NCBI RefSeq assembly: GCF_900112315.1
Contig: NZ_FOLL01000011.1
Span: 62,001-126,000 of the forward strand
Length of the DNA stretch: 64,000 nucleotides
From: Parapedobacter composti
GTDB lineage: Bacteria > Bacteroidota > Bacteroidia > Sphingobacteriales > Sphingobacteriaceae
Direction of reading: 5' to 3'
How positions within the stretch are numbered: the stretch's first letter is position 1; every line of letters begins with the position of its first letter. Position numbers and translations under genes: made by a program. Under the pieces are notes generated by a model, which was not told the DNA's origin, did no database searches, and saw nothing but the letters and a program-made list of their open reading frames with translations. Below are positions 58,517-64,000 of this stretch, in pieces.

Positions 58517-60673
58517 ATGCCGATGAACCGAAAATCAACTAATTTTTTAATAATGAGTGTTTTAATGACTTCCTGTGCGCAGGAGAAGTCCCGGACGCCT
58601 TACGAGTGGCCATCGATTGCTGCGCCGATCGCTGCGGTGAAGCCGCATGTAAGAGCGCTGCATGGCGATACGGTGATCGACAATTATTATTGGTTGAATG
58701 ATTACTTTAAAAAGGGACCGGATACCGCGGCCGTTATTCAGTATCTTGAAGCGGAGAACGCGTATACCGACGCCATGATGAAAGATACCGAACCGTTGCA
58801 GGCCAAATTGTTTGAAGAAATGAAGGGGCGTGTTAAGGAGCAAGACGAGTCTGTGCCTTATTTTAAGAACGGGTACTATTATTATACACGCACCGAAGAA
58901 GGCAAGCAATATTACAAGTTCTGCCGTAAGAAAGAAAGCTTAGATGCGCCGGAAGAGGTGCTGTTGGATGTGGATGCACTGGCGGAGGGCCATTCTTATT
59001 ATTCCGTAAGGGGTTTCAATGTAAGTCCGGACAATAAGTTGCTGGCGTACGGGGTTGATACCGTGTCCAGACGGCAGTATACCATCCATATTAAAAAGCT
59101 GGAAACCGGCGAACTGATGGCGGATGCAATCCCTGGGACGACCGGGGGATCCGTGTGGGCCAACGATAACCAGACGTTGTTTTATACAAAAAATAATCCC
59201 GCTACGTTGCTTACGGAGAAAATCATGCGGCATACGCTTGGTAATGGGGTGGAGGGAGACGCGACCGTTTATCACGAACTGGATAACACGAACTATATTG
59301 GTGTAAGTAAGGCCAAATCAGGCCGGTTTATTTATATCTATTCTGGCGGTACACTATCGTCAGAGACCCGGTACCTGGATGCGGATAAGCCCATGGAAGC
59401 TTTCAGGGTGTTTCAGCCCCGCATGAAGGATGTGTTATACAGCGTCACAGCGTTATCGGATCGCTTTCTTATTGTAACCAACCGCGACGCTAAGAATTTC
59501 AAATTGATGGAATGCCCCTTGGACGAAACGGGCGTAGCGCATTGGAAAGAGATGATTCCGCACCGCGAGGATGTGCTGCTGGAAGATGTAGATGAATTTA
59601 AGGATTTTCTGGTTATATCCGAGCGGAAGAACGGCCTTGTTCAATTGGCGGTACGTAACCTGATGGACGGCAGTGAGCATTATCTGGATTTTGGCGAGGC
59701 AGCGTACACGGCCTACCCGGCAACGAATCCCGAGTACAATACCTCCACCTTGCGGTACGCGTATACATCGCTGACCACGCCGGCATCGACCTATGATTAC
59801 GACATGTTATTGCGGGAAAAGACCTTGAAGAAGCAACAGGAGGTTGTGGGCGGTTATAACGTTGAAGATTATACTACCGAGCGATTGTATGCGACGGCTG
59901 ACGATGGCACAAAAGTGCCTATATCGTTGGTCTATAAAAAAGGTTTCAGGAAGGACGGCAGCGCTCCGCTGCTGTTATATGGGTATGGCTCTTACGGTGC
60001 TACCATGGATCCTTCCTTCAGCTCCGCGCGGCTGAGCTTGTTGGATCGTGGGTTCGTGTTTGCCATTGCGCATATCCGTGGTGGACAGGAAATGGGCCGC
60101 CAATGGTATGAAGACGGTAAAATGATGAAAAAGAAAAACACATTCACCGACTTTATCGCTTGCGGCCAGTATTTAGTGGCCGAAAAATACACGGCCCCGG
60201 AACATCTTTACGCGCAGGGAGGCAGTGCCGGAGGGTTGCTTATGGGGGCTGTGATCAACATGGCGCCGCAGCTTTGGCATGGTGTCATTGCCCAAGTGCC
60301 ATTTGTAGATGTGGTTAATACCATGCTTGACGAGACCATACCGCTTACCACAAATGAATATGATGAATGGGGCAATCCGAATGATCGAGAAGCCTATTTC
60401 TACATGAAGAGCTATTCGCCTTATGAGCATGTAGAAGCGAAGGCATATCCGAATATGCTGGTGACTACCGGCTTGCACGACAGCCAGGTGCAGTACTTTG
60501 AGCCGGCTAAATGGGTTGCTAAACTGCGCGCGACCAAGACGGACAACAATGTGTTGTTACTGAAGACCGAGATGGATTATGGCCATGGGGGAGCATCCGG
60601 GCGGTTCGACTATCTGAAAGAAATCGCGCTGGTATACGCCTTCTTATGTGCATTGGAGGGCATCACGGATTAG
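58517..60673 (+). CDS. S9A family prolyl oligopeptidase, lipoprotein
   Basis: 718 residues (ATG 58523 is an alternative start). Signal with MTSC as a probable lipobox. An N-terminal beta-propeller (for example RGFNVSPDNKLLAYGVDTVS) is followed by an alpha/beta-hydrolase domain with Ser570 in GGSAGG, Asp in GLHDSQVQYFEP and His in DYGHGGASG. It cleaves short peptides, usually after Pro or basic residues. It is divergent from the S8 peptidase. Confidence 0.95.
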   Translation: MPMNRKSTNFLIMSVLMTSCAQEKSRTPYEWPSIAAPIAAVKPHVRALHGDTVIDNYYWLNDYFKKGPDTAAVIQYLEAENAYTDAMMKDTEPLQAKLFEEMKGRVKEQDESVPYFKNGYYYYTRTEEGKQYYKFCRKKESLDAPEEVLLDVDALAEGHSYYSVRGFNVSPDNKLLAYGVDTVSRRQYTIHIKKLETGELMADAIPGTTGGSVWANDNQTLFYTKNNPATLLTEKIMRHTLGNGVEGDATVYHELDNTNYIGVSKAKSGRFIYIYSGGTLSSETRYLDADKPMEAFRVFQPRMKDVLYSVTALSDRFLIVTNRDAKNFKLMECPLDETGVAHWKEMIPHREDVLLEDVDEFKDFLVISERKNGLVQLAVRNLMDGSEHYLDFGEAAYTAYPATNPEYNTSTLRYAYTSLTTPASTYDYDMLLREKTLKKQQEVVGGYNVEDYTTERLYATADDGTKVPISLVYKKGFRKDGSAPLLLYGYGSYGATMDPSFSSARLSLLDRGFVFAIAHIRGGQEMGRQWYEDGKMMKKKNTFTDFIACGQYLVAEKYTAPEHLYAQGGSAGGLLMGAVINMAPQLWHGVIAQVPFVDVVNTMLDETIPLTTNEYDEWGNPNDREAYFYMKSYSPYEHVEAKAYPNMLVTTGLHDSQVQYFEPAKWVAKLRATKTDNNVLLLKTEMDYGHGGASGRFDYLKEIALVYAFLCALEGITD

Positions 60674-60681
60674 GTGACTGA

Positions 60682-60897
60682 CTATTTTTTCTCTTGTGCT
60701 TCTTTTTTCCGCATCTCAAAATTCACGGCCGCGTTTTTACTGGCCCGCGACGAAACGTAAATGGCGGCGGATGCAAGCAGGATGACGATGAGAATACCCC
60801 AAACTCCCTTGCGCTTATCCTGCTTCATAAGCCAGATGAGCAACGCGATGAGGGGAACGGCGAAGAAAAGAATGAAAAACCAGCTTGTGCCTGTCAT
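60682..60897 (-). CDS. Small two-helix membrane protein, unknown
   Basis: 71 residues. Two hydrophobic segments (SWFFILFFAVPLIALLIWLM and GVWGILIVILLASAAIYVSS) separated by a basic loop, with a charged C-terminus. No known family recognised. It converges on the S9 gene, whose stop is 8 bp away. Confidence 0.6.
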   Translation of the reverse strand: MTGTSWFFILFFAVPLIALLIWLMKQDKRKGVWGILIVILLASAAIYVSSRASKNAAVNFEMRKKEAQEKK

Positions 60898-60998
60898 GCC
60901 GCAAAGTTCTGAATAAAAAGCAAGGTATGCAAATGGTATCTGTATGGCAGTCAGCCGCTAACATGACAGGGCTGGGATAAAAATAAAATATCAATAAA

Positions 60999-61031
60999 TT
61001 TGTGTAAAGAAAAATATTTTCTCTACATTTG
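60999..61031 (+). promoter_or_regulatory. Promoter of the second arg operon
   Basis: TTTG at 60999-61002, a 21-bp spacer, then TACATTTG at 61024-61031, matching TAnnTTTG. The predicted start near 61038 gives a leader of about 310 nt before the GNAT gene. Confidence 0.65.
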
Positions 61032-61038
61032 GCACCTT

Positions 61039-61330
61039 AATTGCAGCCCGGGTTGCAATACTATTCAGAATGAACACAAAAAATATAATCGCCGTATCTA
61101 CCGTGTCGTGCTTCCAGCACCACATGTTGTGCTTTTTGTGTGAAGTTTTAACTGCCGAGAGACCGGTACTCCGGCTCCGACGACCCATTTTGCCCCGGGC
61201 TTAATTGTGGGGCAACGCTCTCCGAAAAACGTACAGTATTAGGTCCGATAGCTGTACATCGAATCAACGGTTTTCGTTTAACGATTTAATTACCAAAACA
61301 CACCACTTCGTTGGCTGTTTTTAATTTTTT
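61039..61330 (+). promoter_or_regulatory. Candidate arginine attenuator leader
   Basis: Hairpin A: ATTGCA (61040-61045) with TGCAAT (61054-61059). Long-range option: AGCCCGGG (61045-61052) with CCCGGGCT (61194-61201), plus flanking AATT/AATT. Third option: TTGCCCC (61190-61196) with GGGGCAA (61209-61215). The last two share bases and exclude each other, and the long-range option also excludes hairpin A. A further hairpin, GTACAG (61231-61236) with CTGTAC (61252-61257), follows. Last, AAAACA (61295-61300) with TGTTTT (61316-61321), plus a T-rich tract to 61330, resembles a weak terminator 17 bp before the GNAT ATG. Confidence 0.55.
61070..61204 (+). CDS. Putative arginine leader peptide
   Basis: 44 codons, ATG 61070 to TAA 61202-61204. 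There are no Arg codons in the first 30. Five occur in the last 14 (AGA, CGG, CGA, CGA, CGG), in the segment ERPVLRLRRPILPRA. The middle is rich in Cys and His (CFQHHMLCFLC). It lies about 30 nt after the predicted transcription start of an operon that makes arginine. A ribosome slowed on these codons would change which RNA pairings form (see the attenuator entry). Function is inferred from position and codon content. Confidence 0.5.
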   Translation: MNTKNIIAVSTVSCFQHHMLCFLCEVLTAERPVLRLRRPILPRA

Positions 61331-61347
61331 AGGGGTCGTATATTCCA

Positions 61348-62058
61348 ATGCAACTTTCAGACTTTTTGATTATACCTGCTTCTGAGCAACATATTGCATA
61401 CGCTCAGCAGATTTGCGACGAGATGGCAGAGTCGGCCAAAGCCCGGGGAACCGGGATTGCCCAGCGCAGTCCGGAATACGTAGCGAATAAGATGCGTGAA
61501 GGCAAGGCGGTGATAGCGCTGCGTAAGACAGATTGGGCGTGGGCCGGTTTCTGTTATATTGAAACCTGGAGCCATGGGGATTTCGTGGCCAACTCCGGTT
61601 TGGTGGTAAACCCCGAATTTCGTAAGGTAGGGTTGGCCCGCGCCATTAAAAAGCGTATCTTCGACCTCTCACGGGAGAAGTACCCGAAAGCTAAGATATT
61701 TGGCCTTACCACCGGACTTGCGGTAATGAAGATTAATTCGGAGCTGGGTTACGAGCCGGTAACGTATTCCGAACTCACACAAGATGAAGAGTTCTGGAAG
61801 GGATGCCAAAGCTGCGTGAACTATGACATCCTGACCAGCAAGCAACGTAAAAACTGCATGTGCACGGCCATGTTGTGGGACCCGGTAGAGAAAGAGAAGG
61901 AGTTGCGTGAGCGTATTGAAATGAAGGCCAAAGCGCGCGAACGGTTGAAGCAAATTACCAAGAAATCGTCGCTCCTGAAACGGATAGAAGCGAAACTGTG
62001 GAAATCGACCAAAAAAATGATCACCGCGTTTATCGCCAGACATCCAAGGACGGCATAA
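61348..62058 (+). CDS. GNAT family acyltransferase, candidate N-acylglutamate synthase
   Basis: 236 residues. GNAT core: GLVVNPEFRKVGLARAIKKR is the acyl-CoA-binding motif (a variant of RxxGxG/A), and FGLTTGLAVMKINSELGYEP is the late beta-strand/helix. A C-terminal region carries Cys (KGCQSCVNYDIL, KNCMCTAMLW) and a charged coil. Its place directly before argG and argC suggests it makes the N-acylglutamate that starts the pathway, since no argA or argJ is seen. I recall a similar GNAT proposed for this role in Bacteroides; this is not proved here. Confidence 0.85.
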   Translation: MQLSDFLIIPASEQHIAYAQQICDEMAESAKARGTGIAQRSPEYVANKMREGKAVIALRKTDWAWAGFCYIETWSHGDFVANSGLVVNPEFRKVGLARAIKKRIFDLSREKYPKAKIFGLTTGLAVMKINSELGYEPVTYSELTQDEEFWKGCQSCVNYDILTSKQRKNCMCTAMLWDPVEKEKELRERIEMKAKARERLKQITKKSSLLKRIEAKLWKSTKKMITAFIARHPRTA

Positions 62059-62082: not shown

Positions 62083-63273
62083 ATGAAGAAAGTCGTATTA
62101 GCATTCAGCGGAGGGTTAGACACCTCATTTTGTTGCATTTACTTGTCCAGAGATCTCGGACTGGAGGTACATTCAGTCATCGTTAACACGGGTGGTTTTT
62201 CAGCGGAAGAACTCGGCCAGATTGAGCAACGGGCTTATTCCCTCGGCGTGAAGTCCCATACTGTTGTCGATGAAACGCAGCACTATTACGACAGTTGTAT
62301 CAGATACCTTATTTTCGGAAACGTACTGAAAAATGCTACCTACCCGTTGTCAGTAAGCGCGGAACGGGTAAGCCAGGCCACGGCCATTGCTCATTATGCC
62401 AAACAAATCGGTGCGGAATATGTGGCACATGGCAGTACTGGAGCGGGTAACGACCAAGTACGGTTCGATATGATTTTCAACACGCTTATCCCGGAGGTGG
62501 AAATCATTACCCCCATACGCGATTTAAAGCTGAGCCGTGAAGAAGAAATTGCATACCTGCATAAACATGGAGTGGAGTTCAGTGCCGAAAAAGCCAAATA
62601 TTCCATCAATAAAGGAATATGGGGCACTTCAGTGGGCGGGCAAGAAACACTTACCTCTCATGAAACGCTGCCGGAAGAGGCCTGGCCTACACCGGTGACA
62701 GCTACGGAAACCCGGCGACTGGCGATTGACTTTGTAAAGGGCGAACCGGTGGCATTGGATGGCATGGAATTGGGACCGGTGAAGGTTATCCAAGAATTGC
62801 AGGCCATAGCCCAGCCTTATGGTATCGGGCGTGATATCCATGTGGGCGATACCATTATCGGCATAAAAGGGCGGGTTGGCTTTGAAGCGGCGGCCCCCAT
62901 CATTCTTATCAAAGCGCACCATACGCTGGAAAAACATACGCTGACCAAATGGCAGCTGAGCTGGAAAGATCAATTAGCCGCGTTTTACGGCAACTGGATG
63001 CATGAAGGGCAAATGCATGATCCGGTAATGCGGGATATCGAAGCTTTCTTGCAAAGCGCGCAGCAGACGGTGAGCGGAAAGGTATTCGTTGAACTGAATC
63101 CTTACCGTTTTACCATCGTTGGTATTGAATCGGCCCACGACCTGATGTCCAGCAAATTCGGCAGTTATGGAGAGATGAATAATACCTGGACTGGCGATGA
63201 CGTAAAAGGGTTTTCCAAGATTTTCGGTAATCAAGTGTCTATCTGGCACAAGGTGAACAGGGGGGGGGAATGA
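62083..63273 (+). CDS. argG: Argininosuccinate synthase
   Basis: 396 residues. The ATP-binding P-loop of the PP-type is AFSGGLDTS (8-16); GSTGAGNDQVRFD follows. It joins citrulline and aspartate. It starts 24 bp after the GNAT gene. The 3' end has nine consecutive G (63260-63268) and overlaps argC by 4 bp. Confidence 0.97.
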   Translation: MKKVVLAFSGGLDTSFCCIYLSRDLGLEVHSVIVNTGGFSAEELGQIEQRAYSLGVKSHTVVDETQHYYDSCIRYLIFGNVLKNATYPLSVSAERVSQATAIAHYAKQIGAEYVAHGSTGAGNDQVRFDMIFNTLIPEVEIITPIRDLKLSREEEIAYLHKHGVEFSAEKAKYSINKGIWGTSVGGQETLTSHETLPEEAWPTPVTATETRRLAIDFVKGEPVALDGMELGPVKVIQELQAIAQPYGIGRDIHVGDTIIGIKGRVGFEAAAPIILIKAHHTLEKHTLTKWQLSWKDQLAAFYGNWMHEGQMHDPVMRDIEAFLQSAQQTVSGKVFVELNPYRFTIVGIESAHDLMSSKFGSYGEMNNTWTGDDVKGFSKIFGNQVSIWHKVNRGGE

Positions 63274-64000
63274 GTAAGGTAAAGGTAGGCATCATCGGTT
63301 CCGCCGGTTATACGGGCGGTGAACTGCTCCGTATCCTTATCCACCACCCGCATGTGGATATTGTATTTGCGTATAGTGCCAGCAATGCAGGCAATCTCAT
63401 TGCTGATGTTCACACCGACCTGTTGGGCGATACCAGCCTGCGCTTCAGTGATACCTTCCATAGCGATATAGACGTATTGTTCCTCTGTGTAGGCCACGGC
63501 GATGCCCGGAAATTTCTGGAAGCCAACACGATTGAACCGCATGTGAAGATTATTGACCTTTCCCAGGATTACCGCTTACGTGCCCGGACGGAATACCAAG
63601 GTCGGTCTTTTGTATACGGATTGCCGGAGTTGCAGCGGGAGACCATCCGGTCCGCGCAGTATATCGCCAACCCGGGTTGCTTCGCTACAGGTATCCAGCT
63701 GGCTTTGCTGCCGCTAGCGGCGCAAGGGCTGCTTACCGGCGAAATCCACATCAATGCAACAACGGGTTCTACGGGCGCAGGGCAAAAACCGTCAACCACC
63801 TCCCATTTTAGCTGGCGGAATAATAATTTATCTGTATATAAGGCATTTACGCATCAACACTTGCAGGAAATCAGCGAATCGTTCGAAAGCCTGCAGCCGG
63901 GATTCCTGCCAGCTGATGGCGATACCTTGTTGCAGCGGGCGCAGCAGCGGATAAACATTATTCCACAGCGGGGCGATTTCACGCGGGGCATCCTTTCGGC
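63270..64000 (+). CDS. argC: N-acyl-gamma-glutamyl-phosphate reductase, 5' part
   Basis: Open from ATG 63270 (ATGA overlap with the argG stop) to the window edge, 243 codons. It has the Rossmann start VGIIGSAGYTGGELLRIL, YGLPEL, and the catalytic Cys137 in NPGCFATGIQ, then TTGSTGAGQKPS. It makes the semialdehyde used by ArgD. The G tract just before it supplies the ribosome binding site. Confidence 0.96.
   Translation, partial: MSKVKVGIIGSAGYTGGELLRILIHHPHVDIVFAYSASNAGNLIADVHTDLLGDTSLRFSDTFHSDIDVLFLCVGHGDARKFLEANTIEPHVKIIDLSQDYRLRARTEYQGRSFVYGLPELQRETIRSAQYIANPGCFATGIQLALLPLAAQGLLTGEIHINATTGSTGAGQKPSTTSHFSWRNNNLSVYKAFTHQHLQEISESFESLQPGFLPADGDTLLQRAQQRINIIPQRGDFTRGILS

Follow-up and report, generated by a model that had tools for sequence, protein, structure and literature searches.

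Bacteroidota are abundant in soil and gut, and their ribosomes rarely use Shine-Dalgarno (SD) pairing. In Proteobacteria, amino acid operons are classically attenuated through a leader peptide, whose ORF carries control codons for the amino acid that the operon makes. The LEU element, found upstream of leuA in Actinobacteria, was described in a 2005 comparative study (PMC1262725); as outlined there, its leader ORF contains a run of end-product codons, and a base stem with a pseudoknot inside it pairs this codon run with the region in which the first gene starts. Arginine codons are used in the Salmonella orf34-speF leader (PMC6386406), where two of them stand consecutively in the leader ORF, the position of the ribosome chooses between folds that block or free the start of the next gene, and a hairpin near the stop codon is described as important. 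In the S. aureus rbfL-rbf system (PMC13009471), rare Arg codons in the leader are reported to sense arginine and to affect translation initiation. Within Bacteroidota, the F. psychrophilum transcriptome (PMC9723704) and a B. thetaiotaomicron map (PMC7366714) touch on short ORFs or on attenuation by leader peptides in 5′ regions, in F. psychrophilum before amino acid operons; the passages concerned do not name a leader for arginine, a pattern of codons or a structure, which the supplements might do. Among the matches listed in the leader-peptide literature, with subscription papers and supplements outside the scope, no arginine leader in Bacteroidota was found.

The region analysed here lies upstream of an arginine operon in the window, that is, the whole 64,000-nt stretch of Parapedobacter composti DNA. 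It shares with LEU the leader ORF with its run of end-product codons, the base stem and, as a candidate, the inner pseudoknot, but the likeness seen is one of logic rather than of sequence: LEU belongs to leucine and Actinobacteria and, as outlined in that study, the 3′ strand of its stem is the SD box, whereas the strand here reads GGTCG, which is not SD-like, and two predicted hairpins with putative loop-loop pairing are present here, one of them over the stop codon. A LEU-like base stem is found in Parapedobacter- and Sphingobacterium-type loci and is missing from most other genus groups. The orf34-speF leader resembles the present one in the traits given above and differs, by its description, in its host (Gammaproteobacteria), in its target (ornithine decarboxylase), in the participation of Rho and RNase G and in the equivalence there of rare and frequent Arg codons, CGACGA included. 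In rbfL-rbf, by contrast, the paused ribosome is described as covering the next start, which gives repression, and the target is a biofilm regulator. The classical Proteobacterial attenuators differ from this locus in that a terminator is unsupported here and the GNAT start region has the control codons as its predicted pairing partner.

We consider it somewhat probable that the region is a cis-acting arginine sensor of the GNAT-argG-argC operon that exerts translational control through Arg-starved ribosomes. When arginine is ample, ribosomes would read through the leader and leave; once they are gone, helix P0, hairpins P1 and P2 and a loop-loop contact would close into a single folded domain. 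The GNAT start region would then be held in P0, giving low GNAT translation, and argG-argC would be kept low by coupling or polarity. When Arg-tRNA is short, a ribosome would wait with CGA in its A site and physically cover the 5′ strand of P0, which would free the GNAT start region. The components of this proposal differ in strength. Ribosome-mediated control via the Arg codons is well supported by comparison of loci, and the conserved pairing of P0 between the Arg codons and the pre-GNAT region suggests that in Parapedobacter and Sphingobacterium control is exerted on the initiation of translation. In other genera, judging from their sequences, the Arg leader is kept and the output part differs. 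The first-pass annotation had read the region as a ribosome-mediated attenuator; the Arg-codon leader control in that reading is supported by conservation, and the switch partner and the terminator are not supported in this genus. The features are as follows.

61000–61031, forward strand: candidate Bacteroidota-type promoter, with TTG at 61000–61002, a spacer of 21 nt and TACATTTG at 61024–61031 (from sequence).
61040–61059, forward strand: 5′ hairpin ATTGCAGC-CCGG-GTTGCAAT (fold; eight aligned Parapedobacter 5′ UTRs).
61070–61204, forward strand: leader ORF of 44 codons, peptide MNTKNIIAVSTVSCFQHHMLCFLCEVLTAERPVLRLRRPILPRA followed by the stop codon (sequence, conservation).
61178–61183, forward strand: tandem CGA CGA, codons −8/−7, proposed control codons (codon bias).
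61180–61186, forward strand: putative P0 5′ strand ACGACCC, within the control codons (minimum free energy (MFE) fold, group fold, GGTC anchor table, duplex energies).
61190–61215, forward strand: predicted hairpin P1 over the stop codon, TTGCCCC (61190–61196) with GGGGCAA (61209–61215) (50-locus alignment, fold).
61197–61201, forward strand: P1 loop strand GGGCT, proposed loop-loop (kissing) partner (50-locus alignment).
61231–61257, forward strand: predicted hairpin P2, GTACAG (61231–61236) with CTGTAC (61252–61257) (covariation, fold).
61242–61246, forward strand: P2 loop strand GGTCC, proposed partner of 61197–61201, with two of the five pairs G-U in the window (50-locus alignment).
61295–61330, forward strand: P3, a weak hairpin (61295–61321) plus T-rich tract, the earlier terminator candidate (fold).
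61333–61339, forward strand: putative P0 3′ strand GGGTCGT, 9–15 nt before the GNAT ATG (folds, anchor table).
61348–62058, forward strand: GNAT-type acetyltransferase, first gene of the operon, ATG at 61348 (homologue and PDB profile matches).
62083–63273, forward strand: argG, argininosuccinate synthase (protein family matches).
63270–64000, forward strand: argC, N-acyl-gamma-glutamyl-phosphate reductase, extending beyond the window end (family matches).

That the downstream genes make arginine, as had been proposed, agrees with the identification of argG and argC after the GNAT gene; the run of genes ends at argC, and hemL follows on the opposite strand. By itself, the window's GNAT protein matches no Pfam or NCBIfam family at E ≤ 0.01, and Acetyltransf_1 reaches E 0.013 against it, below the cut-off of that family. 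Acetyltransf_1 does match 10 of 10 GNAT homologues (best E 9.6e-5), and a GNAT profile searched against the PDB finds PA4794 with E 2.2e-7. In the genome collection used, the closest named relatives by GNAT identity are Parapedobacter luteus (94%) and P. indicus (91%), and the gene was found in 178 of 201 genomes of the window's family. Some variation was seen: the GNAT match is in two pieces in three Sphingobacterium-group assemblies (G141, G210, G224), several genomes of the same group (G235, G233, G211, G243, G249) have a second copy about 50% identical to the window's, and in two genomes of family f21 the homologue sits inside a longer open frame, of 630 aa in one and 601 aa in the other, which might be a fusion (G281:C87:76074-76622 and G422:C136:8416-8964).

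Upstream of the leader, a promoter-like arrangement similar to that of the window is visible by eye in most relatives; we take TTG with TACATTTG as a candidate match to the Bacteroidota promoter consensus, and a sigma-70 scan gave matches at chance level only. The 5′ hairpin proposed at first pass holds up as a fold (dG −8.6; 12 of 200 shuffles as good) and is foldable, by eye, in most of the eight aligned sequences, namely the window and seven relatives. The switch that had been built on it, AGCCCGGG (61045–61052) pairing with CCCGGGCT (61194–61201), fared less well: the 8-bp complementarity is present in the window, 4–5 bp at most are found in eight other Parapedobacter, and the pairing was rejected since its equivalent is missing at 8/8 of these loci. 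In nine loci (L081, L083, L084, L109, L112, L113, L121, L132, L133), a conserved 5′ UTR stretch, ACTGTAAGTCAAA, stands immediately 5′ of the leader start.

The leader ORF is as first annotated, with 44 codons on the forward strand (61070–61204); its first 30 codons contain no Arg, and five of the 14 sense codons after them encode it. It is a conserved short ORF located between the candidate promoter and the first gene, its control codons encode the amino acid that the operon makes, and its conservation is far beyond chance. A search with the 44-aa peptide gave E values of 1.8e-21 to 1.1e-11 in the eight other genomes of the genus that were searched, always upstream of GNAT, and weaker matches upstream of GNAT outside the genus; a search of the own genome for a second copy gave three matches, and the only other one listed had E 0.26. 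An Arg-tailed ORF ending 70–165 nt before GNAT passed the leader filter (28–100 codons; stop 70–165 nt before GNAT; at least two Arg in the last 13 residues and Arg or Lys among the final three) at 109 of 110 family loci and, with 54 further Sphingobacterium (genus g16) loci added, at 163 of 164, these being counts without a shuffle control from a filter that by design selects for the Arg-tail motif. The sole failure, L125, has a 44-codon ORF with the end FRRPLMPQA. A looser filter, applied to the named loci (80 taken, one of them with too little upstream DNA), found a leader in 76 of 79 and none in L263, L287 and L288. A control independent of the Arg-tail filter is given by 40 loci of other Bacteroidota families, taken from the 83 genomes of the phylum in which GNAT was found: 19/40 of these loci have an upstream ORF whose last 12 codons include four or more for Arg, compared with 1/40 on the reverse strand, and the mean best Arg count is 3.17 versus 1.75 (reverse) and 1.50 (shuffled). 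Examples of these leaders end in ...VPTRRRP, ...RRRP and ...IPRRR. The ORF, its Arg codons and its position before the arginine operon are kept in the family and beyond, which is the outcome of the conservation check suggested at first pass.

What is conserved within the leader is its end and its length. The mean identity of 124 distinct 44-aa leaders is 16% over residues 2–30 and 68% over residues 31–44, and the frequency of Arg per residue is 0.284 in residues 31–44 versus 0.042 in residues 1–30, in leaders chosen by a filter requiring tail Arg. The kept tail is mostly RRPxxPRx, with RRPILPRA in Parapedobacter and Sphingobacterium, the clade-specific variant RRPFMPR[VTF], SRRRLFIPRV in Mucilaginibacter, SRQNYTPRI in Pedobacter and RPFPRR in an Anseongella MAG. 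Exactly 44 codons are found in 80 of 109 leaders (the others have 31–45) and in 133 of 163 loci of the larger set. The exit tunnel, or the spacing of ribosomes, may underlie this near-fixed length despite drifting residues 2–30 (L002–L031, L062–L195). The Cys/His-rich middle, which had been thought possibly to matter for stalling, is partly kept within Parapedobacter only and is without a conserved role.

Codon usage singles out the two Arg codons at −8/−7. Across 123 non-redundant tails, CGA accounts for 207 of the 224 Arg codons at these positions, whereas in the window it is rare, with 61 of 900 Arg codons over 41 long ORFs. The tRNA-Arg anticodons among 41 tRNA hits in the own genome are ACG, TCT, CCT and CCG; TCG is absent among these hits, and the ACG (inosine) tRNA should therefore decode CGA, through a wobble that is slow. 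CGA is probably chosen for this slowness, the ACG-anticodon tRNA being its sole reader. No RNA partner for CGACGA is shared across 13 MPR[VF] or nine IPRV loci, in which the motif is nearly fixed nonetheless, and the codon choice at −8/−7 thus seems itself to be under selection. A candidate partner in the MPR[TN] group, a 6-bp GACGAC/GTTGTC pairing at GNAT codons 7–8 in 11 of 12 loci, was set aside as uninformative, since this coding stretch is nearly invariant anyway; GTTGTC at these codons was noted in L088–L092, L095, L097, L099, L103, L104 and L108.

The same Arg codons form one strand of the predicted helix P0. It emerged unprompted, both in the MFE structure of a 201-nt segment of the window (z −1.98; 9 of 200 shuffles as good) and, with P1, P2 and P3, in RNAalifold on eight Parapedobacter sequences. 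By comparison of loci, P0 is conserved and covaries between genera: of 50 non-redundant loci of the Parapedobacter/Sphingobacterium type, 47 have a GGTC that starts 12–15 nt before GNAT (14 in the window), and leader base −16 and the base adjoining GGTC are T-A in 27, C-G in 15, T-G in two and mismatched in three, so that the stem is longer by one pair in 44 of the 47. Duplex energies between leader tail and pre-GNAT segment are far below those of shuffles in the LPRA group (z −6.7; 0/60 as good), better than all 60 shuffles in the five PRR loci (z −2.9) and borderline in the MPRA group (3/60 as good). By the same measure P0 was not found in the MPR[VF], MPR[TN], IPRV and Pedobacter-type groups, which indicates that this leader does not act through P0 in general. 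Within Parapedobacter P0 is conserved and never covaries, five of the seven pairs being invariant and two broken in one row each, and RNAalifold on all 50 loci recovers P1 alone, with the alignment one base off register at the P0 3′ strand. The 3′ strand is not a Shine-Dalgarno box, GGTCG not being SD-like. In constraint folding of the other LPRA loci, a ribosome placed at CGA lowers predicted pairing of the GNAT start from 0.74 to 0.60, a small effect that a ribosome at the stop codon equals (0.60); in Parapedobacter, where the freed strand re-pairs with 61218–61229, pairing goes from 0.79 to 0.77 and neither ribosome position frees the start. This segment of the window, CTCTCCGAAAAA, can pair with the T-rich tract plus GGGG before GNAT and is a possible alternative partner in Parapedobacter.

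P1, the hairpin straddling the stop codon (61190–61215), had been proposed at first pass and gains support from the 50 non-redundant loci kept, in a MAFFT alignment, from 101 with LPRA/IMPRA/FMPRA tails: 96.9% of its cells are paired, both sides change at 3/7 pairs, and RNAalifold recovers it unprompted. Folded alone in the window it is unexceptional (z −1.0; 31 of 200 shuffles as good). The loop-loop pairs are paired in 93.8–96.9% of cells, with columns 30/100 going from A-U to G-C in 16 rows. Taken together, P1 and the loop-loop contact are paired in 96.1% of cells versus 35.6–48.9% for slid controls, and none of 500 shuffles attains either their 39 cells with changes on both sides or their covariation score of 0.266; of the five measures, two are not extreme, namely pairs with both-side changes (33/500 shuffles as high) and further pair types (58/500). 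P2 has both-side changes at 3/6 pairs in seven Parapedobacter loci, and 6 of 200 shuffles are as good as its window fold; in several Parapedobacter loci the loop of P2 contains GAGTCC.

These counts should be read against the GNAT tree, on which the covarying positions of P0, P1 and the loop-loop contact changed only one to three times each; the sequence counts thus overstate the covariation evidence, and the independent-pairs test is without power. The same-way fractions from this test are 0.9 (P0), 0.6 (loop-loop pair) and 1.0 (P1 pair 24/50); P1 pair 27/47, with one supported row pair, gave 0.0 same way, 0.1 other way and 0.9 no difference. On covarying stems, the other check named in the first-pass annotation, both-side changes were counted for P1, P2, the loop-loop contact and, between genera, P0, with few independent changes and without covariation of P0 inside Parapedobacter. 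Rfam 15 gave no gathering-score match in 18 loci of relatives, and in window positions 60600–61700 a single match with E 1.7, far under its gathering score.

In a classical transcription attenuator the stalled ribosome would prevent termination at P3 (61295–61330) or a related hairpin, and P0 would be a by-product; we regard this as rather unlikely here, although leader, control codons and T-rich tract are all in place. The hairpin with T-rich tract ending before the GNAT ATG, which the first-pass annotation took for the terminator, folds no better than chance (dG −4.3, z +0.4; 129 of 200 shuffles fold as well), and an intrinsic terminator at 61290–61330 was rejected because hairpin plus U-tract is not above shuffles in Parapedobacter (4/9 real versus 15/27 shuffled). 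In groups of at most 16 loci, the other LPRA loci give 7/16 versus 14/48, whereas the combination is commoner than in shuffles in the sister groups MPRA (5/6 versus 4/18), MPR[VF] (6/13 versus 3/39) and PRR (3/5 versus 2/15), and Daejeonella-like loci have two conserved small U-run hairpins before GNAT. On the other side, a U-run is absent before GNAT in several Sphingobacterium loci, a non-exhaustive search found no conserved antiterminator mutually exclusive with P3, and the 3′ strand of P0 lies downstream of the T-rich tract, so that P0 should come too late to decide termination there. A transcriptional output is possible at loci with two successive U-run hairpins. Such an arrangement, conserved between genera, reads AAAGACTA..TAGTCTTTTTT and TCCG..CGGATTTTTT, each followed by a U-run and the first shorter in some loci (L086, L088–L092, L095, L097, L103, L104, L108, L114, L115, L120).

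The tail could also act as a peptide. In the fungal arginine attenuator peptide, the nascent chain stalls the ribosome in response to arginine, and a C-terminal x-P-R-x-stop, whose distance from the start codon is fixed, might likewise stall on arginine rather than at hungry codons, a reading that we find improbable. In its favour, 118 of the 123 non-redundant tails have Pro at −3 and 122 have Arg at −2, encoded by four and six codons, respectively (for Arg CGG 43, CGA 42, AGA 16, AGG 13, CGT 7, CGC 1), and 80 of 109 leaders keep exactly 44 aa while residues 2–30 drift; the leader filter, which wants Arg or Lys in the last three residues, does favour Arg at −2. The strict CGA at −8/−7 is a codon signal and not a peptide signal, the tail nucleotides double as P1 and loop-loop pairing, and the leaders of other families end otherwise (...RRRP, ...IPRRR). 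That the ORF encodes a small functional protein with no cis regulation is extremely improbable: an ATG ORF has indeed been conserved across long evolutionary time, but with 16% mean identity over residues 2–30 the part kept is the RNA-embedded tail only, and the strong peptide matches are located at the GNAT site.

Translational control by Arg-starved ribosomes is thus the reading we prefer. If it is true, the LEU-element logic, in which control codons also serve to lock the following start site, emerged a second time, for arginine and without SD pairing, and the freezing of the single codon CGA within an otherwise drifting peptide would be explained. A more elaborate version, which we put forward as an unlikely speculation, would have three layers and be widespread in Bacteroidota: an inosine-read CGA pair would set the sensitivity and lock the start of the first gene, a Pro-Arg-x-stop nascent-chain pause would act at a fixed 44 codons, and the loop-loop contact would latch the off state. 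If the preferred reading holds, the leader region would also offer a simple, mutable test bed for the hiding and exposing of non-SD start sites.

In family f4, the leaders of L209, L210 and L234 and a later ORF in L212 end in Arg codons followed by CGCCCGTAA. At these four loci a small hairpin of the type CGCCC GTAA GGGTG spans the stop codon, and AGGTGAGTCC forms the loop of a further hairpin.
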